Part shown: piece after piece, positions 1 to 42,481 of the stretch | Layout of the letters: each line of letters starts with the position of its first letter | How positions within the stretch are numbered: the stretch's first letter is position 1 | Made by a program: the position numbers and the translations under genes | Source: Chromatiales bacterium | GTDB taxonomy: Bacteria > Pseudomonadota > Gammaproteobacteria > JAGRGH01 | Reading direction: 5' to 3' | Assembly: GCA_020445605.1 (NCBI GenBank) | Contig: JAGRGH010000033.1 | Location: forward strand, 1 to 42,906 | Length of the DNA: 42,906 bases | Notes under the pieces: generated by a model | Database searches by the model: none | The model's input: the letters and a program-made list of their open reading frames with translations, nothing else | Told to the model about the DNA's origin: nothing

Positions 1-1
1 C

Positions 2-400
2 GCCGAGCAATTGACCGTGTTGCAGGCAATGGCCCGTGTCGAGCTGGAGTCGGAAGATAGCCAAGAATTGCTTGCGCGGATTCTCGGAAAGCCTTCGATT
101 CAAAACCGCGACAAAGGCGACGATGGCGCCCCGAAAATCAGCAAACCCGAGCAAGAGATTCTGCGTCTATACGCTGGCGATGCACGGGGCGCCGATATGG
201 CGGGACAAACCGCTTACGGCCTGTTGAACGCTGTCACGGAGTACACGGACCATCATTATGGCCGCAGTGCCGATGCACGAATCAATTCGATGTTGATGGG
301 ACCGAATGCCCAGCTCAAAGACAAGGCGTTCTCCGTCCTCGCCGAGCATACGCGCGAATGCACGGGTTCTGATTTGCTCCGCTCGCTGCTGGCCAAGTAA
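2..400 (+). CDS. DUF932-like phage/plasmid protein, 5'-truncated
   Basis: The reading frame is open to the left edge of the window, so the N-terminal part is missing; about 132 residues are visible. The stretch around residues 65-105, with LLNAVTEYTDHHYGRS and an ARINSMLMG segment followed by LKDKAF, matches the C-terminal signature of DUF932 (TIGR03299) proteins as I know the family. These are found on phages and plasmids and have no settled biochemical role. It is the first of a run of small plus-strand genes. The stop codon lies inside an AAGTAACTT palindrome (395-403). The in-frame Met at 41 is probably internal, because the homology continues upstream of it. Confidence 0.7.
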   Translation, partial: AEQLTVLQAMARVELESEDSQELLARILGKPSIQNRDKGDDGAPKISKPEQEILRLYAGDARGADMAGQTAYGLLNAVTEYTDHHYGRSADARINSMLMGPNAQLKDKAFSVLAEHTRECTGSDLLRSLLAK

Positions 401-2476: not shown

Positions 2477-3084
2477 GCAAACTAACTTTCGCCAGCAGCG
2501 TCAACCGCTGGCACGATGAAACCGCGCTAGATCATGCGATGCACGACGTCGACGGCGTGAGCCTTCCAATCTGCGGCGCAAAGCAATACGCTTTCACGGG
2601 CCATCGTGCCGCGCCGTCAAAATCACTTTGCGGCAATTGTCGGCGCATCATTGGCGGGGCGATAACCCGCGGCATGCGTCGCGCGTTCTTCGCCAGTGCA
2701 TGGGCCGAGCAAGCGGAGGAAACCGGGCATAGCGCCGAGCTGGTAGGCAAAGACATTATGGAAATAATGCCCCGTACCGTCGACGCGTCGTGCCATTGCG
2801 CCGCGCGTACGCTTTGGTTTGACATGGAGGCACGCAATGGCGGGAGCCTGGACGTCGTCGACCTTTTCGCCCGTGCATGTGGATTGCCGACCGATGGCGC
2901 CGATAGAGAATTGACGCCGGAAGCATTCGGCCACTATTGCGCAATGCAAGCAATGGGGCATGGTGTCGGATTGGAATCATTCGGCCATGCGGTCAACGAT
3001 TCAATTCATGTGCCCCGTGTTGAATTTGGATCGTATTCGCTGGCCCGCGATTATTTCGTCGACCTTACTTCCACCCATGATTGA
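2473..3084 (+). CDS. Hypothetical phage protein (203 aa)
   Basis: The largest gene of the left module (203 residues). The N-terminal half contains a Cys/His set: a Cys near residue 34, then CGNC near 53-56, which could form a small zinc site, followed by a Cys-x-Cys pair in SCHC near residue 108. The C-terminal half (FGHYCAMQAMGHGVGLESFGHAV) is helical. The start overlaps the previous stop (ATGA). A near-match to the dispersed palindrome (AAACTAACTTT) lies just inside the gene at 2479-2489. No family recognised. Confidence 0.6.
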   Translation: MSKLTFASSVNRWHDETALDHAMHDVDGVSLPICGAKQYAFTGHRAAPSKSLCGNCRRIIGGAITRGMRRAFFASAWAEQAEETGHSAELVGKDIMEIMPRTVDASCHCAARTLWFDMEARNGGSLDVVDLFARACGLPTDGADRELTPEAFGHYCAMQAMGHGVGLESFGHAVNDSIHVPRVEFGSYSLARDYFVDLTSTHD

Positions 3085-3096
3085 GGCGTGCACACC

Positions 3097-3291
3097 ATGT
3101 TGATAGACATTCTCAGATTGATCGGCGCGGGGTTCGCCTTTGTGTGTGCCTTTCTGGCACTGCTGGCCAAAGTGATCGAAGGCGATTTAATCAGCGGTCT
3201 ACTCTGCTGGGGCGGGCTGTTTGTCGTTGGGGTTTTCACGCTACCCGACCCGATGCAAGCGGAAAGAATCCGCCGAGCTGTGCGGGATTGA
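3097..3291 (+). CDS. Small two-helix membrane protein (64 aa)
   Basis: A 64-residue hydrophobic protein starting MLIDILRLIGAGFAFV. Two membrane segments are visible, about residues 5-24 and 31-50, separated by a short KVIEGD loop, then a charged tail. I chose the ATG at 3097 rather than the GTG at 3088 because GAGG (3083-3086) is at the right distance for it. It is the last gene before a terminator. It could be an inner-membrane accessory factor such as a superinfection-exclusion protein, but nothing in the sequence proves that. Confidence 0.55.
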   Translation: MLIDILRLIGAGFAFVCAFLALLAKVIEGDLISGLLCWGGLFVVGVFTLPDPMQAERIRRAVRD

Positions 3292-3303
3292 ATCCGCCTG
3301 TCA

Positions 3304-3320
3304 CTAAACCGAAGGTTTAG
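3304..3320. other. Perfect hairpin CTAAACC-GAA-GGTTTAG
   Basis: Seven-base perfect stem with a three-base loop, 13 bases after the last stop of the left gene run and just before the terminator. It may protect the mRNA 3' end or be an operator. Confidence 0.55.
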
Positions 3321-3341
3321 ATTCAACCCGTTTCAGCCATT

Positions 3342-3365
3342 GGCCCGCGCAATGCGGGCCTTTTG
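3342..3365 (+). terminator. Rho-independent terminator of the left gene run
   Basis: GGCCCGC, loop GCAAT, GCGGGCC, followed immediately by TTTT and a further T-rich stretch. It lies about 50 bases after the last gene and closes the plus-strand operon. Confidence 0.85.
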
Positions 3366-3469
3366 CTTTCCGCCCCGCTGGCGCCCCGTGAACCCCGCTT
3401 GGCTATCTCCCCACCTTGGCCCATGCGATCGGCTGGCCACGGGGCGCGTATTGCGTTCTAGCGGCATGT

Positions 3470-3645
3470 CTTGAGCTGGCCCGCCCCGAGCTGGGGTGCA
3501 TGGCTGGCCCGTCCTTCCGTCCTTGGATTGAAACCCGCTGCACTCGGATGCGCCGAGCTGTGCATTGCATCGTGCTGTGCATTGCATCGTGCCCCGAGCT
3601 GGCCCGCTGTGCCCCGAGCTGGCCCGTGCTGCTGTGCATTGCGTA
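3470..3645. repeat. GC-rich direct-repeat cluster, no gene
   Basis: The stretch from 3366 to about 3870 holds no convincing gene. It contains two perfect tandem 17-bp units CTGTGCATTGCATCGTG (3558-3574 and 3575-3591), followed by two imperfect 20-bp units beginning CCCCGAGCTGGCCCG (3592-3611 and 3612-3631) and a partial CTGTGCATTGC (3632-3642). GAGCTGGCCCG also occurs near 3473. The 13-base core CTGTGCATTGCAT recurs once more at 16915-16927, just before the late genes. An imperfect AAAGGTACTTT lies at 3655-3665. Confidence 0.7.
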
Positions 3646-3872
3646 GATAGGTCAAAAGGTACTTTCTGGACTTGCTTTCCGGGGCGGGGGTGCGCCGAGC
3701 CCCGATTTCGAAGAGGTTATGAAATGCATAGAGGCACCTACTGAAGAAATTTACTTGGACCCCGTTTTTCCGTGCAAAAGGAAACCCCCGTACAGAAAAG
3801 CACGAGTGTGCGGATCTGCCGGGGGCCGGTTACGCCAAATTTTTTTTGGATTCAGGTCATGGGCACCGATCC

Positions 3873-4307
3873 TTACTCGGCGTGTCCTTTATATGTGGGG
3901 CTCGTGATTTCGATGATCCGGGTCGCATTGCCCATCATGTCGTGTGCCGTTGAGATTGGGGCGCAGACAATCCACGAATGCACTTCGCCGATGATCCCCT
4001 TCAATCGATCAATCTCCTGGCTGGCGCAATGTTGGTGGTAGTCCGCCATGCTGACTGGGGTATGTCCAGAATCCAGCGGGTCGGGGTGCCCCTCCATCGG
4101 GGCTCCGCAGCAACACACGTCGACGCCTTCCCCGTATTGCTGGAGGGCTTCATAAAGCCGGCTGACGGCTTCGGCCGCTTCGATGGGGTTGCAGCCCTCT
4201 TGCCTAGACTGGCACAGCAGGCATTCACCGCCCCGCTGTTCGTAGATTGACGCGAATGGGGTCATCCGTACCCCACACCGGGTGCACGTGTTCGATTTAG
4301 AGGTCAT
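3873..4307 (-). CDS. Cys-rich zinc-finger-like phage protein (144 aa)
   Basis: The predicted product begins MTSKSNTCTRCGVRM and has two CxxC pairs (CTRC near residues 8-11 and CLLC near 29-32) spaced like a small zinc ribbon, followed by a CCC cluster near 65 and a His/Cys-containing stretch. I chose the ATG at 4307 because it overlaps the end of the upstream gene within GATGACCTCTAA, which signals coupling; a longer frame to 4367 would run deep into that gene. Together with its neighbour it forms a two-gene minus-strand unit flanking the putative origin. A nucleic-acid-binding role is plausible but unproven. Confidence 0.65.
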   Translation of the reverse strand: MTSKSNTCTRCGVRMTPFASIYEQRGGECLLCQSRQEGCNPIEAAEAVSRLYEALQQYGEGVDVCCCGAPMEGHPDPLDSGHTPVSMADYHQHCASQEIDRLKGIIGEVHSWIVCAPISTAHDMMGNATRIIEITSPTYKGHAE

Positions 4308-4647
4308 CATCGCTCTCGTCCTCGTTGTCCTCGCTCTCGGGTGTCCAGGGGCCGTCCAAGTCCTCATCCCAATCCGCGGGAGCTGCCGCCGCGCCCTGGG
4401 TCTTCGCCGCGCCCGAAGTGGTCTTCGCCGCGCCTGCCGGGCTCTTCGGTTGAAACGGTCGGTAGGCGTGAAGGGGGCAGAGTTCGACGGTGCAATCGCG
4501 AACTTCCTGGCGATCGTAGTTTGTGCATTGCAGACATTTTCCTTTCAGGGCGTTCGTCCGCGAGCTGGATTTCGCGAAAGCGCGTTCGAGAATCCCCTTT
4601 GCAGAGGGTGGGACGGTGTTCAGGTACTCGGCTTGCTTCGGGGTCAT
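4297..4647 (-). CDS. Small Cys-motif phage protein with acidic tail (116 aa)
   Basis: The middle of this protein (residues about 38-66) carries CLQCTNYDRQEVRDC followed by CPLHAYRPF. The pattern CxxC-x6-EVxxC-x5-CPLxxYRP is a recurring small domain of phage proteins in replication or early regions; its four Cys probably bind zinc. The C-terminal third is Ala-rich and then strongly acidic (DEDLDG, ESEDNEDESDDDL). A strong ribosome binding site, GGAGGAG, precedes the ATG. It is the first gene of the minus-strand pair, with the next gene overlapping its end. Confidence 0.7.
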   Translation of the reverse strand: MTPKQAEYLNTVPPSAKGILERAFAKSSSRTNALKGKCLQCTNYDRQEVRDCTVELCPLHAYRPFQPKSPAGAAKTTSGAAKTQGAAAAPADWDEDLDGPWTPESEDNEDESDDDL

Positions 4648-5382: not shown

Positions 5383-5407
5383 TGGTGGTTCTCGGGTCCG
5401 AGCCCGA

Positions 5408-7936
5408 CTACAAGTCATCGTCGATTTCCGATCTGCGTTGTTCGAGCAGCTTTCGGACGATCGTTTTGTTCGGAATCGGGTTGCCGTAATCGTCCCTTTC
5501 GTTGAATACGTCAGGCTCGCGGGTCCACATTCGATGTTCCCTTTCGTTGTTGATTTGGAACCTGCCGACCAGCTCGAACCCGTATCGCTGAAGGTGCATG
5601 GATAGCGTTTTCGGTGGCGGAACTTCGATCCCGACTGCCGCCATATAGTCGACTGTGAAGGTGATATCGAGCAGTTGCGAGCTGATTTCCGCGATGCGGT
5701 TTTCGGCGATTGCGTCTTCGATCCACTGGATGCACTCGGGCATGGCGTTTCGGATCATCTGCCCCCTGGCCCCCGTAATCGGGGCGGTCCCTTTCGGGTT
5801 GAATTTGGGGGAGAACTCGTGTTCGAGGAACCAGCGACGAATAGCGCCGGGGTATTCCTCGATCTGGCTATACAGGGTCGAAAAGTAGTTTGGGTTCTCC
5901 CGCGTGAACCTGTCGATCGCCTGCCGGCTCTGCCACTGGCTGAACAAGACCAGGTATCGCCGGTCGTGGTCGTCGATCGGGATCGCGTCCTTGTAATTGG
6001 TGAACAGGATGTAGGCCGTAGTGTTGCGCACGTTGCGCACCGCTTGGCCCTTGGGGTGTACCTCGATCACCGAGTTCGTAATGAACGGCTTGATGCGGTT
6101 CAGCGTCTCGTACTTGTTGCGGTCAGCGATCAAGCGCACTTCTTCGACCGCGGCTAGGCACTGCCCTTCGGCCCAATCGGTAAACTCACTTTGGAGAATG
6201 TGGGCGTTGAGCATGGACACGTTCGACGGCCCCATGGTCGCCCGCATCATTTCGGCAAGGAACGTCTTACCATCACCCGGCGTGCCTTGGAGAAGGATCG
6301 CGTAGTTCGGGCGTTCGCCGGGGTTCTGGACGATGTAGGCCAGCCAGTCGATCAACATCAGCCGTTCCGTAGGGTCTGGCAGTAGGTGGGCAAAGTGAGT
6401 TTCTATAATGCGGACGGCGACGGAGTGGGCGGGTAGGTGGTCCTTCGGGATTTTCGGGATTTCGTGTTCAGGGTAGGTGTTCGCGTAGCGTCCCTCGACA
6501 GTGGAGAAGATCCGGTCGCGACCCGGCTCGTAGCGCTGACCGTCAATGTTCTCGATGCGGTATAGATTCAAAGCAAGGCTCGATGCGTTCTGCGACGGCA
6601 TGGCCCGGTTGTTCAGGATGTCGCTCTTCGTCAGGGCGTGCCGGTCGTGCATGGCGTTAAAGCCCTGCTGCGTGGCCGACAGCTTCGTTTCCAGATTGAA
6701 AAAGCGGTCCAATCCGACGTTGTAGACCCACGGGCGACACCACTCGGGGGCCAGCTCGCCGATCTTGGGGACGTAGGAAAGAGCCTTCTTGACATCGACG
6801 AGGGGGACTTTCTTCCCGGTGATCCGCTCCCAAGCGGCTTTCGCCGTATTGGCCAGGCCCGAGCGGGCGAGGATGTTGATTTCAGCCGTGCGTGCCTGCT
6901 TCTTGGCCCGCTCCCACTCGCTCATGTTCTTGGCAACGAGGAAGGCGTGATTCAGCTCCATCGACAGCTTGGTTTCGGCTTCCTCGGCCGCCTCTTGGGC
7001 GAGGCGCAGGATGTAGCGAGCGGTGATTGGGGCACGCTGCTTGCCGTCGATGCGGAACTTCTCCCAGCGCTTGTCCAAGGCTTCGCGCTCATAATTCTCG
7101 GCTGTCTCGCTCCATTCGTTCCAAAGCTCGAAGCCGAGTTCGTCCCCGTTGTACTGGTGATAGAGCGCCATCCCCACCCGTACCCAATAGTCGTACTCTT
7201 GATTACAGGGGATCACCATCAAGTGCCGTCGTAGGTCGGCGTCTTGGATGTCGATCGGCCGACTGTCTTCGACGAAGGGGTTGTCGGGATCGATCGCCGC
7301 GGCCTTGCCGTGCCCGTTGGCTACCAGCTCCCACCCCTCGCTACTGGCCAGTCCTTCGAAGAACTCGATCAGGTCGTCGACCAGGTCCGGGGTCAGCGTG
7401 GGCAGCTCGTGCGCGGGCACGTCCAGTAACGACTCGCCGCCGACCCATCGGTACGGCTTCCCCGTCTCGGGGTGGGTGTGGAACGCCACGTACTGCTGGC
7501 CGTCCCCGAGCACTTCGATGCGGTTCGTCTGGCCCCATTCGTCTTCATACTTGGACGAGGCGCGTTTACGCATGGGCTCGTCACAGCGAAAGGGCAATAG
7601 GCGTTTCGGGGCGCGACCGATTCGAACGGGGGTGAACCCGATGTTCTCGGTGCACCAATTCTCGATCTTTTTGGCCGCATCTTCGTCGAGCACGTCAATG
7701 TCGATCGCCGGGTGATCCCTGGTCAAGATGCCGACCCCCGACCATTTGTGCCCGTTTTCGATCCATTCCCGCAACTGGTCGGATGTTGCTTTGGAGTTCT
7801 GCCACCCTGAGAAGCCCGGTGATTTGCTGCCGATCAAGATCGGGACGATTCTGTATCCGTTGGAAAGCAGTCTCGCTCCGTACTTGACTAGCGGCCCCCC
7901 GTTATTCTCCAGGCGTTGATCGCCTTTTTTCGTCAT
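5408..7936 (-). CDS. Prim-pol / SF3-type helicase, phage replication initiator
   Basis: An 842-residue multidomain replication protein. Residues about 15-190 resemble a bifunctional DNA primase/polymerase (PF09250): acidic pair in AIDIDV (D79, D81) and EVLGDGQQYVAFHTH at 141-155. Residues about 235-300 look like PriCT_2 (PF08707). The C-terminal half is a DUF5906/SF3-like helicase: Walker A GTPGDGKT at 551-558, Walker B-like CLAAVEEV at 593-600, a sensor Asn in ILFTNYKD near 647, and the DHDRRY arginine finger near 657-661. It should prime and unwind at the adjacent iteron region. Its start overlaps the stop of the HTH gene (ATGA), so the two are co-transcribed. Length is typical for the family. 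Confidence 0.92.
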   Translation of the reverse strand: MTKKGDQRLENNGGPLVKYGARLLSNGYRIVPILIGSKSPGFSGWQNSKATSDQLREWIENGHKWSGVGILTRDHPAIDIDVLDEDAAKKIENWCTENIGFTPVRIGRAPKRLLPFRCDEPMRKRASSKYEDEWGQTNRIEVLGDGQQYVAFHTHPETGKPYRWVGGESLLDVPAHELPTLTPDLVDDLIEFFEGLASSEGWELVANGHGKAAAIDPDNPFVEDSRPIDIQDADLRRHLMVIPCNQEYDYWVRVGMALYHQYNGDELGFELWNEWSETAENYEREALDKRWEKFRIDGKQRAPITARYILRLAQEAAEEAETKLSMELNHAFLVAKNMSEWERAKKQARTAEINILARSGLANTAKAAWERITGKKVPLVDVKKALSYVPKIGELAPEWCRPWVYNVGLDRFFNLETKLSATQQGFNAMHDRHALTKSDILNNRAMPSQNASSLALNLYRIENIDGQRYEPGRDRIFSTVEGRYANTYPEHEIPKIPKDHLPAHSVAVRIIETHFAHLLPDPTERLMLIDWLAYIVQNPGERPNYAILLQGTPGDGKTFLAEMMRATMGPSNVSMLNAHILQSEFTDWAEGQCLAAVEEVRLIADRNKYETLNRIKPFITNSVIEVHPKGQAVRNVRNTTAYILFTNYKDAIPIDDHDRRYLVLFSQWQSRQAIDRFTRENPNYFSTLYSQIEEYPGAIRRWFLEHEFSPKFNPKGTAPITGARGQMIRNAMPECIQWIEDAIAENRIAEISSQLLDITFTVDYMAAVGIEVPPPKTLSMHLQRYGFELVGRFQINNEREHRMWTREPDVFNERDDYGNPIPNKTIVRKLLEQRRSEIDDDL

Positions 7937-16158: not shown

Positions 16159-16184
16159 TTGAATTGTTGAACACGAGGAACACC

Positions 16185-16868
16185 ATGTCGTCAACTGAAG
16201 AGTTTCGAAGGGAGTTCGTAGCTCGCCTGGTACTGGCGTGCGATGAGAGTCAGACAATCCCACCCAAGGATCAAGGGCGTCAACAGTACATATGTGAACG
16301 CCTTCAGGTAGCCCCCGAAGCGGTGAGCAAATGGTTTAACGCGAAGTCGATGCCGCGCCCGTTGCTAATGCAGAAGTTGGCATCGCTGCTGGGCGTGGAT
16401 CACACCTGGCTGCACTACGGCATCAAGCCCGAGCTGGATCGCCGGGAGCGCCAGATCCATGCCAAGGGCTTGGAGGGGGCCGTGCACCTGGTGTGGGGGT
16501 TGATCGCACTGGCCGGCGGTCATTGTGGCACGCTGTCGGAGAAAGACCCACGACGCGACTATGTTGATTTCGTCGCAATGGTGAAGGGGGTTTCCTACCC
16601 CATGCGCGTCACCCTGGCCCGAGAGATCGCGCCGGATGTATACGAAGCCACTGTCGCCAAGGAATTCCGCGAATTGCGAAACGTACTTGTTGTCCAGATC
16701 GCGGACGGGAAGTTCCATTTTCTCGATCTTCCGTCCGATCTGGTCGAGGCGAAAAAGGAATTGAAAGAGGGCAATTTCGCCCTTCGTATCAAACGAGATT
16801 CCAAGCGCTACACGGTCGACGGGGAGTTGATTCCAAGGATCGTATCTTTCACCGACTTTTCGGATTGA
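16185..16868 (+). CDS. XRE-type HTH regulator (227 aa), repressor or late regulator
   Basis: Residues about 33-70 form an XRE helix-turn-helix: RQQYICERLQVAPEAVSKWF followed by KSMPRPLLMQKLASLLGV and DHTWLHYG. The remaining 150 residues are not an S24 peptidase: I see no Ser-Lys dyad pattern, so RecA-driven self-cleavage is unlikely. The start at 16185 is supported by GAGGAACACC; TTG codons at 16164 and 16167 are rejected. It lies alone between the replication and late operons, under its own promoter with an inverted repeat, so it may be the prophage repressor or a late-gene switch. Confidence 0.75.
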   Translation: MSSTEEFRREFVARLVLACDESQTIPPKDQGRQQYICERLQVAPEAVSKWFNAKSMPRPLLMQKLASLLGVDHTWLHYGIKPELDRRERQIHAKGLEGAVHLVWGLIALAGGHCGTLSEKDPRRDYVDFVAMVKGVSYPMRVTLAREIAPDVYEATVAKEFRELRNVLVVQIADGKFHFLDLPSDLVEAKKELKEGNFALRIKRDSKRYTVDGELIPRIVSFTDFSD

Positions 16869-16888: not shown

Positions 16889-16930
16889 TTGCCGAAAAGT
16901 TGAATTTGATGATACTGTGCATTGCATAAT
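16889..16930 (+). promoter_or_regulatory. Late-operon promoter candidate with CTGTGCATTGCAT site
   Basis: TTGCCG (16889-16894), 16-bp spacer, GATACT (16911-16916). The 13-mer CTGTGCATTGCAT at 16915-16927 overlaps the expected transcription start and is identical to the two tandem units in the 3.56 kb repeat cluster. An alternative -10, CATAAT, lies at 16925-16930. Confidence 0.4.
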
Positions 16931-16947
16931 GGTGCGGTGCGCAGATC

Positions 16948-17160
16948 GTGAATAACACAGTCCTCGAATTCGAAGACCAAATTGGTTTGAAACCGACGTC
17001 AGCTTGCCGGCTGATGGGTGTCGCCTATTCGACGTACGCGCAATACCGTTCCGGTCGACGCGATCTCCCCCTGTATCACGAACATCACATGCGGGCCTTG
17101 TTGTTGCTCGCCAAGGGGGAGTTGCGTTCATTGATTCTGGAATATGTCGATGACCTCTAG
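16948..17160 (+). CDS. Small HTH-like protein (70 aa) before the terminase
   Basis: A 70-residue protein with a GTG start. Residues about 12-45 (LKPTSACRLMGVAYSTYAQY and RSGRRDLPLY) look like a helix-turn-helix with the usual Gly-Val turn. Small HTH proteins of this size directly before DUF1441 terminase small subunits are familiar from phages and probably regulate the late operon. The Shine-Dalgarno is poor. The terminase gene starts inside its last codons, showing coupling. Confidence 0.6.
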   Translation: MNNTVLEFEDQIGLKPTSACRLMGVAYSTYAQYRSGRRDLPLYHEHHMRALLLLAKGELRSLILEYVDDL

Positions 17161-17713
17161 CATAAAAAGGTCCGCCGGCCTGGATGATGCGAGCAAAGCT
17201 CTTTTGTTTGAGGGTGCGAACCTTTCTCAACTTGGCGTGTTGTTCCGGATGGATCACCGGGTCCTGGTGGAGAAATTGCACGGCGTTGCGCCTAGCGGAA
17301 AGCGCGGTCACGCGTCAACATGGATGGTTCACGAAGTTGCCCCTTACTTGGTACGGCCTCACTATGACATTGAGGCGTACATCAAGCGGATGAACCATGC
17401 CGACTTGCCGAAGATGCTCACAAAGGAATTTTGGAGCGGGCAGCGGGCGAAGCAAGAATACCTGTTACTCGAAGGCGACCTTTGGCCGACTGCGAAGGTG
17501 GTTGAGGAAGTCGGCGAGCTGTTCAAACTGATGCGGATGCAAATCCGTCTCGCGAGCGATGCGGTTGAGCGTCAAACCGATTTGACGCCTCGCCAACGGA
17601 CAATCATTCGCGGCCTGCTTGACGGCACGCTGAGTGATCTAACCGAGGCGATCAAGAAAAAATTTGCCCCGAAAGAAAGTGGTAATGCGGACCATGACGA
17701 CGAAGAACTATGA
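17150..17713 (+). CDS. Terminase small subunit, DUF1441-like
   Basis: A protein of about 187 residues with an N-terminal HTH-like DNA-binding segment (LSQLGVLFRMDHRVLVEKL, residues about 25-43 counted from the ATG at 17150), a VAPSGKRG turn and a long helical C-terminal part ending acidic (DHDDEEL). The pattern NLSQL...VAP..G is that of DUF1441 (PF07278), found immediately before GpA-type large terminases. It should recognise the packaging site and bring DNA to the motor. I prefer the ATG at 17150 over 17144 because GGA is at proper distance; the end overlaps the large-subunit start. Confidence 0.8.
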   Translation: MTSSIKRSAGLDDASKALLFEGANLSQLGVLFRMDHRVLVEKLHGVAPSGKRGHASTWMVHEVAPYLVRPHYDIEAYIKRMNHADLPKMLTKEFWSGQRAKQEYLLLEGDLWPTAKVVEEVGELFKLMRMQIRLASDAVERQTDLTPRQRTIIRGLLDGTLSDLTEAIKKKFAPKESGNADHDDEEL

Positions 17714-19769
17714 GTCTGTCGGGGAAATCATTGCCGACCTTTCCGCATTCCTGAAGCCCCCCGAGAGATTGAGCGTAGCAGGGGCGGCAGAGAAATACCG
17801 CTATGTGAATCAGCCTGGCGCATTCGTCGGGCAGTGGGACAACACGGTCGCCCCGTACATGGTCGAGCCGATGAACGTCTTCGGCTCGCTTGAATACCAG
17901 GGGTTGATTTTCTGTGGCCCTGCGCAGTGCGGGAAGACGGACGGATTACTTATTAATCCGGTCCTGTATTCCGTCGTTGTTGATCCGATGGACACGATGC
18001 TTGTCTGTCCGACACAGGCCGCAGCGCGCGACTTTTCGATTCGACGGATCGACCGTTTGCACCTTCATTCGAAGGACGTCGGCGCGATGTTGTTGCCGAA
18101 GTCTGACGCCGACAACGTGTTCGACAAGCGCTACCGAAACGGGATGATCTTGTCCTTATCGTGGCCGACAACGACCGAACTTGCAGGTAAGCCGGTCGGC
18201 CGGGTGATCCTCACGGACCGCGACCGGATGGACGACGACATCGGCGGCGATGGTGAGCCCTACGACCTGGCCGCCAAGCGGACGACGACCTTCGGCAGTT
18301 ACGCCATGACAGTGGCTGAATCTAGCCCGAGTCGATCAGTCAAGGACGACGGCAAGAACTGGATTCCATCGAGCCCGCACGAGGCGCCGCCGGCCGGCGG
18401 GATCATGGCGCTCTACAACCGCGGGGACCGCCGCCGCTGGCAATGGCCCTGTCTCTCGTGCGATCGATATTTTGAAGGGAAATTCGAAGACCTCCGTTAC
18501 GACCGGCATCCGGGCATGACGAACCTCGAAGCGGCTGATTCCGTGCGTATGGTGTGTCCCCATTGTGGCGCCGAAATGCGCCCCGAAGATCGCGAGGAAA
18601 TGCAGGCGTGGGGTCGCTGGGTCAAGGATGGTCAGTCGGTCGACCGTAGCGGCCGAATCGTGGGGCCTTCGCCGAGGACGATGATCGCATCCTTCTGGCT
18701 TCGCGGGGTGGCCGCTGCGTTCGTCTCGTGGCGAAAGCTACTTGCGCTCTACCTGGACGCTCTTGATGATTTCGAGCGCACCGGCAATGAAGAGTCATTG
18801 AAGAAGTTCTATAACAACGATCTCGGGGAACCCTACTATCGTCGCGCGAATAGCGATGTTCGAGTTCCGGAAGCGCTCAAGGGTCGGGCTGAAAATCTCC
18901 GGGAACGGCATATTCCCGTGGGTGTCCGCTTCCTGGTAGCGACGATCGACGTTCAGCGTAACCGTTGGGTGGTGCAGGTATTCGGCATCTTGCCAGGCAC
19001 GCCGTTCGATACCGTGCTGATTGACAGATTTGAAGTGAAAAAGTCGAAGCGCGAGGACGAGGACGGGGAACGGCTATGGGTCAAACCTCACGCTTACCTG
19101 GAGGATTGGGACGAGTTGATTGAGCATGTCATCCTCAAGGAATACCCGCTCGATGATGACACAGGTCGAATGATGCGCTTGCGCCTTGTCGGTTGCGACT
19201 CGGGCGGTAAGGCCGGCGTGACCATGATGGCGTACAACTTCTATCGTCGACTGCGTAAGGACAACCTGCATCGCCGGTTCACCCTGGTCAAAGGTGAGCA
19301 TACTCCGGGTCATCCGAGGGCTCGTATCTCCTATCCGGATAGCGATCGCAAGGACCAGAAGGCAGGGGCTAGGGGCGATATCCCCGTGCTGATGCTGAAT
19401 TCGAATGTGCTGAAAGACGACTTAAACGGGCGCCTCGATTGTCTGGTGCCCGGATCTGGAATGTTCCGAATCCCAAATTGGATGCCGGATGCGGTTTACA
19501 ACGAACTTTGCGCGGAGGTTCGCGGGGAAAAGGGATGGAAGAAGGTTCCAGGCAATCCGAACGAATCCTGGGATTTGAGCTATTACTGTATCGGGATGTG
19601 CGTTTCCGAGCTGTTGCGGGTCGAGCATTTGGATTGGAACAACCCGCCGGGGTGGGCCGAGGAATGGGACAAAAATGATTTGGTCCGTACGGCTGACGCA
19701 GAGCGCCGCTTTACAACCGGGGCCGAATCGGCTTACGATTTCGCCAAATTCGCAAAAGCCCTAGCATAA
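17685..19769 (+). CDS. Terminase large subunit, GpA family
   Basis: A large terminase of the lambda gpA type (PF05876), about 694 residues. The ATPase has Walker A GPAQCGKT (residues 78-85 from the ATG at 17685), and the family segment RDRMDDDIGGDGEPYDLA with ASFW-type motifs follows. A zinc-like CPHC with an upstream CLSC occurs near 250-295, and the C-terminal nuclease half carries VATIDVQRNRW and the VGCDSGGKAG metal-binding motif. It cuts concatemers and drives DNA into procapsids. GpA-type enzymes usually make cos ends, so the phage is probably cos-packaging. The start could also be ATG 17694. Confidence 0.95.
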   Translation: MRTMTTKNYESVGEIIADLSAFLKPPERLSVAGAAEKYRYVNQPGAFVGQWDNTVAPYMVEPMNVFGSLEYQGLIFCGPAQCGKTDGLLINPVLYSVVVDPMDTMLVCPTQAAARDFSIRRIDRLHLHSKDVGAMLLPKSDADNVFDKRYRNGMILSLSWPTTTELAGKPVGRVILTDRDRMDDDIGGDGEPYDLAAKRTTTFGSYAMTVAESSPSRSVKDDGKNWIPSSPHEAPPAGGIMALYNRGDRRRWQWPCLSCDRYFEGKFEDLRYDRHPGMTNLEAADSVRMVCPHCGAEMRPEDREEMQAWGRWVKDGQSVDRSGRIVGPSPRTMIASFWLRGVAAAFVSWRKLLALYLDALDDFERTGNEESLKKFYNNDLGEPYYRRANSDVRVPEALKGRAENLRERHIPVGVRFLVATIDVQRNRWVVQVFGILPGTPFDTVLIDRFEVKKSKREDEDGERLWVKPHAYLEDWDELIEHVILKEYPLDDDTGRMMRLRLVGCDSGGKAGVTMMAYNFYRRLRKDNLHRRFTLVKGEHTPGHPRARISYPDSDRKDQKAGARGDIPVLMLNSNVLKDDLNGRLDCLVPGSGMFRIPNWMPDAVYNELCAEVRGEKGWKKVPGNPNESWDLSYYCIGMCVSELLRVEHLDWNNPPGWAEEWDKNDLVRTADAERRFTTGAESAYDFAKFAKALA

Positions 19770-41074: not shown

Positions 41075-41121
41075 GGAAACCGACTAAACGATTCAAATTT
41101 CGCAGTGTTTAGTCGGTTTCC
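41075..41121. terminator. Perfect 15-bp inverted repeat, bidirectional terminator
   Basis: GGAAACCGACTAAAC (41075-41089) and GTTTAGTCGGTTTCC (41107-41121) with a 17-base loop, placed between the convergent lysis and integrase genes. The right arm forms the last codons and stop of the integrase gene. T/A-rich arms substitute for a long T run. Confidence 0.75.
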
Positions 41122-42230
41122 ATCGGTGTTAGAGACTCGGGGAGAAGGGCGGCCGATCGCGAGGCGTCAGCAGCGTAGTACGTGTCCCTGAGCAAGCGGA
41201 CGTCCTTCGTTCCAATCGCGTACGAGAGTTCGAGCACGTCCAGGTGCTTCGCGAGCCGCGTCGCCGCCTCGTGCTTCAGATCGTGGTAATGCAAGTCTTC
41301 GATCCCCGCCATGTCGCGGGCCTTGCGCCAAAGGCTGTCCCGCTGGCTGTCGTCAAGACCCACGATGTAGGGTGGCCGGGTAAAGCCTGGCTTGGGGAGC
41401 TGGTCCGCCGGCATCGAGGCAACCAGGGCGTCGAGTACCTTGATCGCCCGCCTGGTCAACGGCACGTTGCGACTCGGGTCGACCTGGGCTCGACCGCTGC
41501 GCGAGGACTTGCGCCCGCCTCGCTCGATCGCGGCAACGTGGATGGTCTTCCGATCGCGCCAGTAGTCGGCGGGCCTCAGTCGCAGGATCTCGCCCGAGCG
41601 CATGCCAGTCTCAAGAGCCAGCAGGAACGAGGCGCCCACCCTGGCCGTCAGGGTTCGCAGCTCGGGATCTGAGGCTAGGCCGGTGCTGATTTCAAGGGCG
41701 CGAATCTCGCTTGGGGACAGCAGGGGACGCTTGCGGGGACGGCCCCGTTCCGGACGGCGTGCCCCGTAGCATGGGTTCACCATCAGCCAGTGGCGATCCT
41801 TGATCCCGTAGCTGAAGGCGGCCGACATCAAATTCAGTTCGCGGTTCACGGTGGCCGGGCTGACGGTGCGCCCTTTGCTGTCGGGCGTCGTGAGGCGCCG
41901 TTCAATCCATTCGTTCACGTCGTGGGTGATGACCTTGCCCAGCTTCAGCTCGGCGATCGGGTCCGAAAGCCACTTGACGATCCGTAGGTGGTTCCACTTG
42001 GCCGAGTCGGTCTTGCTCGCGACCGCCACCAGGTAGGCATCGAAGAGCTGGCCGACCGTCATCGAGGCGCCCCGGATGCCTTCTACCTTGTTGACGGCCT
42101 TCCGGCGCTCCATTTCCTCGCCCCAATACTCGGCCTCGGCCATCGTGTCGAAGGTGGCCGACTTCTTCTTGCCCCCCGGCAGTCTGACCACGGCTCGCAC
42201 GGAGTCGCCGCGAGGTTCGTACGATGCCAT
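41109..42230 (-). CDS. Tyrosine-recombinase integrase (373 aa)
   Basis: A phage-type tyrosine recombinase (PF00589) with an arm-binding N-terminus (MASYEPRGDSVRAVVRLPGG), a core-binding domain (about 58-150) and a catalytic domain (about 170-365). Active-site positions: R211 in ETGMRSGE, H316 in HDLKHEAATRL where Lys319 stands at the usual second Arg, Thr341 in AIGTKDVRLL where most have GH, and the nucleophile Tyr at 351 or 352. It inserts and excises the prophage. I start at 42230 with GGGGA before the ATG; the frame continues upstream to 42284 without a ribosome site. The start region carries GGGGACA heptamers. Confidence 0.9.
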   Translation of the reverse strand: MASYEPRGDSVRAVVRLPGGKKKSATFDTMAEAEYWGEEMERRKAVNKVEGIRGASMTVGQLFDAYLVAVASKTDSAKWNHLRIVKWLSDPIAELKLGKVITHDVNEWIERRLTTPDSKGRTVSPATVNRELNLMSAAFSYGIKDRHWLMVNPCYGARRPERGRPRKRPLLSPSEIRALEISTGLASDPELRTLTARVGASFLLALETGMRSGEILRLRPADYWRDRKTIHVAAIERGGRKSSRSGRAQVDPSRNVPLTRRAIKVLDALVASMPADQLPKPGFTRPPYIVGLDDSQRDSLWRKARDMAGIEDLHYHDLKHEAATRLAKHLDVLELSYAIGTKDVRLLRDTYYAADASRSAALLPESLTPMETD

Positions 42231-42234
42231 ACTG

Positions 42235-42481
42235 TGTCCCCAACCGATTGTGTGGGGACAGTTTTGGGGACGTCCGGGGGGCATGTCAACCGGGAAGAGG
42301 CGCAGATAGTGGGGTTAAAATGGGGGACAGTGTCCCCAAAGAATCGTAGGGCGTGGAAAGAAAAAGCCCCGCAAATCAAGGATCTACGGGGCTCTCTCGG
42401 TTTTAGGTTTGGTGCCCAGAAGAGGACACAGAGGGTGCGCCGTTGCTGGGATTCCGGAGGTTTGGGGACAGACCTGTCCCC
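42235..42481. promoter_or_regulatory. GGGGACA/TGTCCCC heptamer cluster upstream of the integrase
   Basis: Six heptamers in 250 bases: TGTCCCC 42235-42241 and GGGGACA 42254-42260 (12-base spacer); the perfect palindrome GGGGACA-G-TGTCCCC 42323-42337; GGGGACA 42464-42470 and TGTCCCC 42475-42481 (4-base spacer). A further GGGGAC is at 42266. The first overlaps the integrase ribosome binding site. They are candidates for integrase arm sites or an operator of the integrase gene. Confidence 0.55.
42361..42393 (-). terminator. Rho-independent terminator on the minus strand
   Basis: On the minus strand: AGCCCCG, 15-base loop, CGGGGCT, then TTTTTC. It ends transcription of the small gene at 42481-42714 before the integrase. 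Confidence 0.75.

Follow-up and report, generated by a model that had tools for sequence, protein, structure and literature searches.

In this work, we identified a cluster of palindromic repeats that flanks the predicted cohesive-end site (cosN) of a phage and that, as judged from sequence comparisons, probably represents a set of sites bound by a small phage regulator. The stretch of DNA analyzed, referred to here as the window, has a length of 42,906 nucleotides and carries the repeats in a region at 3.5 kb and a matching site at 16.9 kb, in the leader of a gene for a 70-aa helix-turn-helix (HTH) protein, ORF70. Comparative genomics indicates that the link between the two places is real and that ORF70, and not the XRE repressor encoded nearby, is most likely the protein that binds at both. 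We consider it probable, though well short of certain, that the repeats are extra ORF70 sites, that ORF70 represses its own terminase operon, and that occupancy of the sites at cos links the supply of terminase to cos. The computed support for this consists of the assignment of cos by homology, a shared family of sites, the location of the operator at the ORF70 promoter, the pairing of sites with cos in most ORF70 phages, and the covariation of a protein residue with the operator; from it, we infer binding by ORF70, repression by ORF70, and a role at cos.

The window is the whole of contig C33 of its assembly, and its predicted genes identify it as a contig of a temperate, Chi-like relative of the Casjensviridae. 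PHROG matches were obtained for a primase (minus strand, 5408-7936), an exonuclease, a single-stranded-DNA-binding protein, a DNA polymerase, a methylase, a helicase, an XRE repressor, the small and large terminase subunits (TerS and TerL), a portal protein, a tape measure protein, and an integrase, the gene for the last lying at 41109-42284, near the contig end. The DNA polymerase shares 50% identity over its whole length with that of Burkholderia phage AH2, which also has the same gene order of helicase, repressor, small regulator, and TerS; by profile search, the small regulator of AH2 is not a relative of ORF70. TerS (17144-17713, plus strand; PHROG 141, E = 1.4e-38) is followed by TerL (17664-19769, plus strand; PHROG 15, E = 7e-213), which is about 60% identical to the proteins of Cronobacter phage JC01 and Aeromonas phage phiWae15; among the matches listed, relatives of TerL number at least in the hundreds, and the Casjensviridae have many sequenced members. 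The contig measures 42.9 kb, compared with mostly 56 to 62 kb for the related phage records, and the phage may be incomplete here, with its remainder absent or located on other contigs. Contig C34 (5,759 bases; locus L012) ends in 366 bases (5394-5759) that are 94% identical to window positions 1-366, and it carries GAGCTGGCC words as a 10-bp tandem array (the GAGCTGGCCC array, 4196-4328) and a perfect TATGCATTGCATA at 3847-3859 between divergent genes; it is either the left neighbor of the phage in the window or part of a sister phage. A search of related host genomes gave no phage relative, with two extra matches being weak (E = 1e-4 to 6e-4), and neither single-sequence polymerase protein scans of viral and genome contigs nor the A3 scan of genome contigs provided a useful lead.

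A first-pass annotation of this DNA had described two perfect tandem 17-bp copies and a partial third copy at 3558-3642, and this was confirmed by the sequence: the 17-mer CTGTGCATTGCATCGTG occupies 3558-3574 and 3575-3591, and the intact part of the third copy, CTGTGCATTGC, lies at 3632-3642. Also as described, the 13-base core CTGTGCATTGCAT is found again, without a mismatch, at 16915-16927, outside the 3.5-kb cluster. In the 3.36-Mb host assembly, this 13-mer has only three full copies, all in the window, and the same word read backwards, as a control, has 0 matches. With up to 3 mismatches, the 17-mer occurs four times in the window versus 0.09 expected, the palindrome core TGCANTGCA occurs five times versus 0.7 expected, and TATGCANTGCATA with at most 1 mismatch is present at three places in the whole host assembly, all of them on phage-type contigs. 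An exact search with the 17-mer beyond the window matched two viral contigs and gave no lead. The earlier argument that chance sharing of an exact 13-mer is low fails on its own, since the window contains 100 exact matches of at least 13 bases lying >200 bp apart, compared with 44.6 ± 4.9 in Markov-1 random windows. Sharing of this kind being common in the window, the 13-mer match was dropped as stand-alone evidence, and the case must rest on comparison between phages.

For this comparison, sites were scored with a symmetric leave-one-out profile that was built without the phage's own operator. In the 3.5-kb region, three strong palindromes and one weaker one flank cosN as putative extra ORF70 sites. 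Palindromes A (AGCTGTGCATTGCATCGTG, 3556-3574; score, 13.0) and B (3573-3591; score, 10.1) correspond to the first and second tandem copies, with centers 125 and 108 bp left of cosN, and palindrome C (TGCTGTGCATTGCGTAGAT, 3630-3648; score, 15.0), which corresponds to the partial third copy, is centered 51 bp left of cosN and is the top site of the window (p = 0.0006; rank 1 of 42,888 positions after masking of the phage's own operator). The 20-bp GC-rich unit GTGCCCCGAGCTGGCCCGCT is present twice between the palindromes (3589-3626, plus strand) and consists of the same words as the array on contig C34. The first-pass annotation had overlooked the weaker fourth copy, palindrome D (GGTTATGAAATGCATAGAG, also given as TATGAAATGCATA; 3715-3733, centered 34 bp right of cosN; score, 6.1), which differs from TATGCANTGCATA by 1 mismatch, as well as the cos site between copies three and four and a further well-scoring palindrome, GTTTGTGCATTGCAGACAT, at 4519-4537, inside an ORF on the minus strand in the gene block on the primase side.

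The predicted cosN, a 12-nt 5' cohesive end with the sequence GGTGCGCCGAGC at 3689-3700 (plus strand), was assigned by homology to phage Chi, with whose measured cohesive end it shares 11 of 12 positions; according to the available text of PMC4342425, the Chi end is 5'-GGTGCGCAGAGC, as determined by primer extension. A sensitive DNA search with positions 3300-3760 matched window positions 3647-3705 to gene-free or terminal stretches of Chi-like phages, with weak E values of 0.1 to 6. The homologous stretch is annotated as "cos overhang" in Smarc1, and the records of AH2 and Jing313 are linearized there, with that of Jing313 ending at it; for AH2, a 12-bp 5' overhang was found by sequencing, as stated in the accessible part of PMC3483164. 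An alignment of 19 cos regions revealed a shared element ending in GCGCNGAGC; this conserved element, left of cosN, reads GGTCAAAAGGTACTT in the window (3650-3664, plus strand) and GGTCAAAAGGTACTC in Smarc1, MA11, and phiAxp-2. Like the cos sites of Chi, AH2, and Jing313 in the Casjensviridae, the predicted cosN combines a near-identical 12-nt 5' end with a position that has the right-arm genes on one side and the primase gene on the other and is >10 kb away from the genes for terminase. Unlike the window, however, the Chi-like phages without ORF70 (Jing313, BUCT552, and AH2) have no ORF70-type palindrome adjoining cosN. The cos pattern was absent from 14 of 16 further viral records. A second sequence that is 11/12 identical to the Chi end, GGTGCGCAGATC (0.125 such matches expected in the window), is present at 16936-16947 between the ORF70 operator and the start codon, touching the start of ORF70; it was rejected as a second cos because the ORF70 leaders of relatives have no equivalent.

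The 3.5-kb region is gene free and is bordered by convergent genes, both pointing towards it. Within 330 bp of the four cos-side sites, there is no start of an ORF of at least 45 aa that has a Shine-Dalgarno-like sequence, and a scan of 2900-4400 for sigma-70-like pairs gave none. On these grounds, we rejected the suggestion that the repeats mark another regulated promoter, serving a protein-coding gene. The gene-free nature of the cos region may by itself explain why noncoding sites lie there. In 14 of the 19 phages, the 400 bp left of cosN are repeat rich, with words that are specific to each phage; L054, L060, L055, L053, L058, and AH2, for instance, have short direct repeats of their own in up to 8 copies. 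The tandem doubling in the window may reflect slippage in this repeat-rich stretch. It could further be argued that the operator words as a whole were spread by slippage or recombination and have no function at cos, given the abundance of other short repeats in the stretch, the unrelated repeat words found at this location in relatives, and the high frequency of exact 13-mer sharing in the window. However, in relatives whose words are quite different, a lone ORF70 site with a good match is retained near cosN, in each case resembling that phage's own operator, and we regard this explanation as unlikely.

In AH2, L053, and L058, all of which lack ORF70, repeated copies of the word CCGAATA occur to the left and to the right of cosN, and one inverted copy is found at +54, +54, and +55, respectively; these copies are possibly origin iterons or terminase sites. 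The idea that they form a parallel to the window, shared with the terminase promoter of these phages, was rejected, as that promoter has no copy. Such iteron-like words, together with the end of the primase gene beside cos, are compatible with a replication origin in the gene-free region at which bound ORF70 would control initiation. On the other hand, no origin has been mapped in these phages in the literature covered, and the window is not repeat rich over the 400 bp to the right of cosN (p = 0.61); we hold this to be unlikely as well, slightly more so than a functionless spread of the repeats.

The ORF70 gene (16948-17160, plus strand) overlaps the TerS gene, and the palindromic ORF70 operator, TACTGTGCATTGCATAATG at 16913-16931, contains the shared 13-mer. 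The 16.9-kb copy does sit at the start of the late operon, as had been noted, namely in the leader of ORF70, the gene with which the terminase operon begins; no promoter-like hexamer pair passed a scan of 16.7 to 17.1 kb. Relatives of ORF70 with 47 to 52% identity were detected by tblastn directly upstream of TerS in Smarc1, UF_RH7, MA11, phiAxp-2, AXY1, and FoX4, and one with identity in the same range was detected in SS2019XI, the record of which breaks off immediately after ORF70. When the panel was searched with a profile, 39 matches were obtained, or 29 after removal of 10 duplicates, and 28 of these have upstream sequence. A palindrome of the form NNTNCA-N-TGNANN is located close upstream of ORF70 in 25 of the 28 loci, with the three exceptions, L047, L097, and L098, encoding the most divergent ORF70 proteins. 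Three viral contigs (L043, L044, and L045) start 12 bases before the ORF70 match (at position 13), which suggests that, in this lineage, a prophage or the record has its boundary at ORF70. A second operator-like palindrome was noticed in two loci, L142 (4166; G096:C1 4166) and L151 (4366; G103:C1 44365), in each case 25 to 27 nt before a small gene that runs leftward and has a Shine-Dalgarno-like sequence, the encoded proteins (128 and 118 aa) being alike by eye. These second sites are not at any cos that could be found, and an ORF70-type regulator may control a second operon there.

ORF70 of the window matches Pfam only below the cutoff. Its AlphaFold2 model (pLDDT, 93.4) has five helices, of which helix 27-35, containing Q32, is presumably the recognition helix, given the usual HTH layout. 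The structural neighbors are small repressors, namely HigA2 (Z = 8.7), MqsA (Z = 8.0), Aca2 (Z = 7.8), and Aca10 (Z = 7.7), although for a helical domain of this small size, a Z score of around 8 is indecisive. All 15 loci with a TGC half-site have Q or E at residue 32, and all 10 loci with a TGA or TGG half-site have A, K, or H there; these loci are related sequences and not independent events, of which at least two can be discerned. In L056, nested among Q-type proteins as sister to L048 (support, 0.89), both residue 32 and the operator are switched. Position 11, which is very variable, ties with residue 32 in mutual information.

The operator at its leader and the tracking of half-sites by residue 32 make the 70-aa HTH protein the likely binder among the two regulators named in the first-pass annotation. 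The other one, an XRE-type lysogeny repressor of 234 aa (16164-16868, plus strand; PHROG 2967 and Pfam HTH_3), is encoded just upstream of the 16.9-kb site, and the sites could in principle be its operators. Against this, the operator is retained in the lytic relatives Smarc1, UF_RH7, MA11, phiAxp-2, AXY1, and FoX4, which have no repressor gene at the corresponding position, whereas AH2, L053, L058, AchV4, L081, and L090 have the repressor and no significant site near cos. This distribution does not fit the repressor, which we judge not to bind the motif and consider highly improbable in this role.

Pairing with cos was assessed in 10 nonredundant ORF70 phages, with Smarc1/UF_RH7/MA11 and phiAxp-2/AXY1 counted as one lineage each and the cos position of AXY1 set by comparison with phiAxp-2. 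In 7 of them (the window, SS2019XI, FoX4, L054, L055, L060, and G097), the best site other than the operator is no more than 500 bp away from cosN (p ≤ 0.05), and in 6 of the 7 it is rank 1 of the locus. The combined p value is 4e-11, or 3e-9 without the window, with a profile made from 18 operators that were chosen by eye as a CANTG palindrome before ORF70, some of them from related phages, and with a region size of 500 bp that was chosen after a first look. By the same profile, distance, and threshold, a cos-side site was found in none of 8 phages classed as lacking ORF70, the TerS neighborhood being seen in 6 of these controls and L081 and L090 having been classed without a terminase region in view; when these two are excluded, the comparison is 7 of 10 versus 0 of 6 (p = 0.01, calculated by hand). 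A weak site is present in L090 at -92 (p = 0.08). The cos-side sites also resemble the operator of their own phage (14.4 of 19 positions) more than those of other phages (12.0), with 3 of 5,040 permutations being as good, and half-sites match at both places (TGCG in L060 and G097; TGAA in L055). Together, these comparative profiles support the earlier suggestion that the 3.5-kb and 16.9-kb places bear the same site. No cos-side site accompanies the operator in the remaining 3 lineages, Smarc1/UF_RH7/MA11, phiAxp-2/AXY1, and L056, so a role at cos would be inessential to the family and an addition.

The positions of the cos-side sites vary (-424, -192, -125/-108/-51, +34, +55, +57, +65, and +333), with several lying 55 to 65 bp right of cosN. 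The inverted CCGAATA of the three ORF70-lacking phages, in a similar place, hints that a position of about +54 to +65 matters, a correspondence noticed post hoc. In phage lambda, base pair 56 is named for R3, and N15 has a simple, one-site cosB, according to the available text of PMC4669245. The sites at +55, +57, and +65 are close to the R3 position, and along with the location of the repeats around cosN and the short phage-specific repeats left of cosN in 14 of 19 phages, this would suit an alternative in which TerS recognizes the repeats as a counterpart of the lambda cosB R sites and regulates itself through the copy before ORF70. Yet TerS is present in the ORF70-lacking phages AH2, L053, L058, Jing313, BUCT552, and AchV4, none of which has a site near cos, and in the three ORF70 lineages without a cos-side copy; in addition, the operator half-sites track the recognition helix of ORF70 instead. 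We therefore rejected TerS as the binder, and this alternative appears very unlikely.

With ORF70 as the preferred binder, similarities to and differences from two known systems can be drawn. The autorepressors Aca1, Aca2, and Aca10 are small HTH proteins of the XRE fold, which ORF70 is predicted to resemble, and they too have an inverted repeat in the promoter of their own operon, as described in the accessible part of PMC9410906. In contrast to theirs, the ORF70 operon encodes terminase and, by annotation, no anti-CRISPR protein, the annotated neighbors being helicase, repressor, and terminase genes, and additional sites are found at cos, 13 kb away. The cosB sites of lambda and N15 are also protein-binding sites within about 60 bp of cosN, and N15 has an accessory copy in the TerS gene (PMC4669245, available text). 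The sites described here differ in that they follow ORF70 and not TerS, vary in place, lie left as well as right of cosN, and are absent from some lineages.

In the mechanism that we propose, ORF70 would bind, within its own leader, the palindrome TRTTCA/TGCA-N-TG(C/A/G)A and, once bound, would most likely repress the ORF70-TerS-TerL operon, as Aca proteins do theirs; autorepression of this operon is likely the core role of the protein. At cos, the most likely effect would be that ORF70 bound beside cosN modulates the access of terminase. Next most likely, the sites would titrate ORF70 as phage DNA multiplies and in this way relieve the terminase operon. A more far-reaching version, in which ORF70 is a dual-role packaging regulator and a third, detachable part of the terminase system that gates cutting or recruits terminase at cosN and represses the terminase operon by the same specificity, is possible but doubtful. 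If it were true, the start of packaging and the synthesis of terminase would be wired together by one palindrome that coevolves with one recognition-helix residue.

The accessible portions of the literature covered, which includes PMC3483164, PMC9746216, PMC4342425, PMC9022528, PMC9410906, and PMC4669245 and few subscription journals, contain no account of ORF70 or of operators at a Chi-like cos, and within the same scope, nothing was found in print on the control of a Chi-like terminase operon. For these phages, the present analysis provides a concrete candidate regulator together with its operator, names Q32 as the residue predicted to set specificity, and unexpectedly places a second location for the regulator at cos. 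Should the cos-side sites be functional, production of the packaging motor would be tied, through a single small protein, to the stretch of DNA at which that motor cuts.
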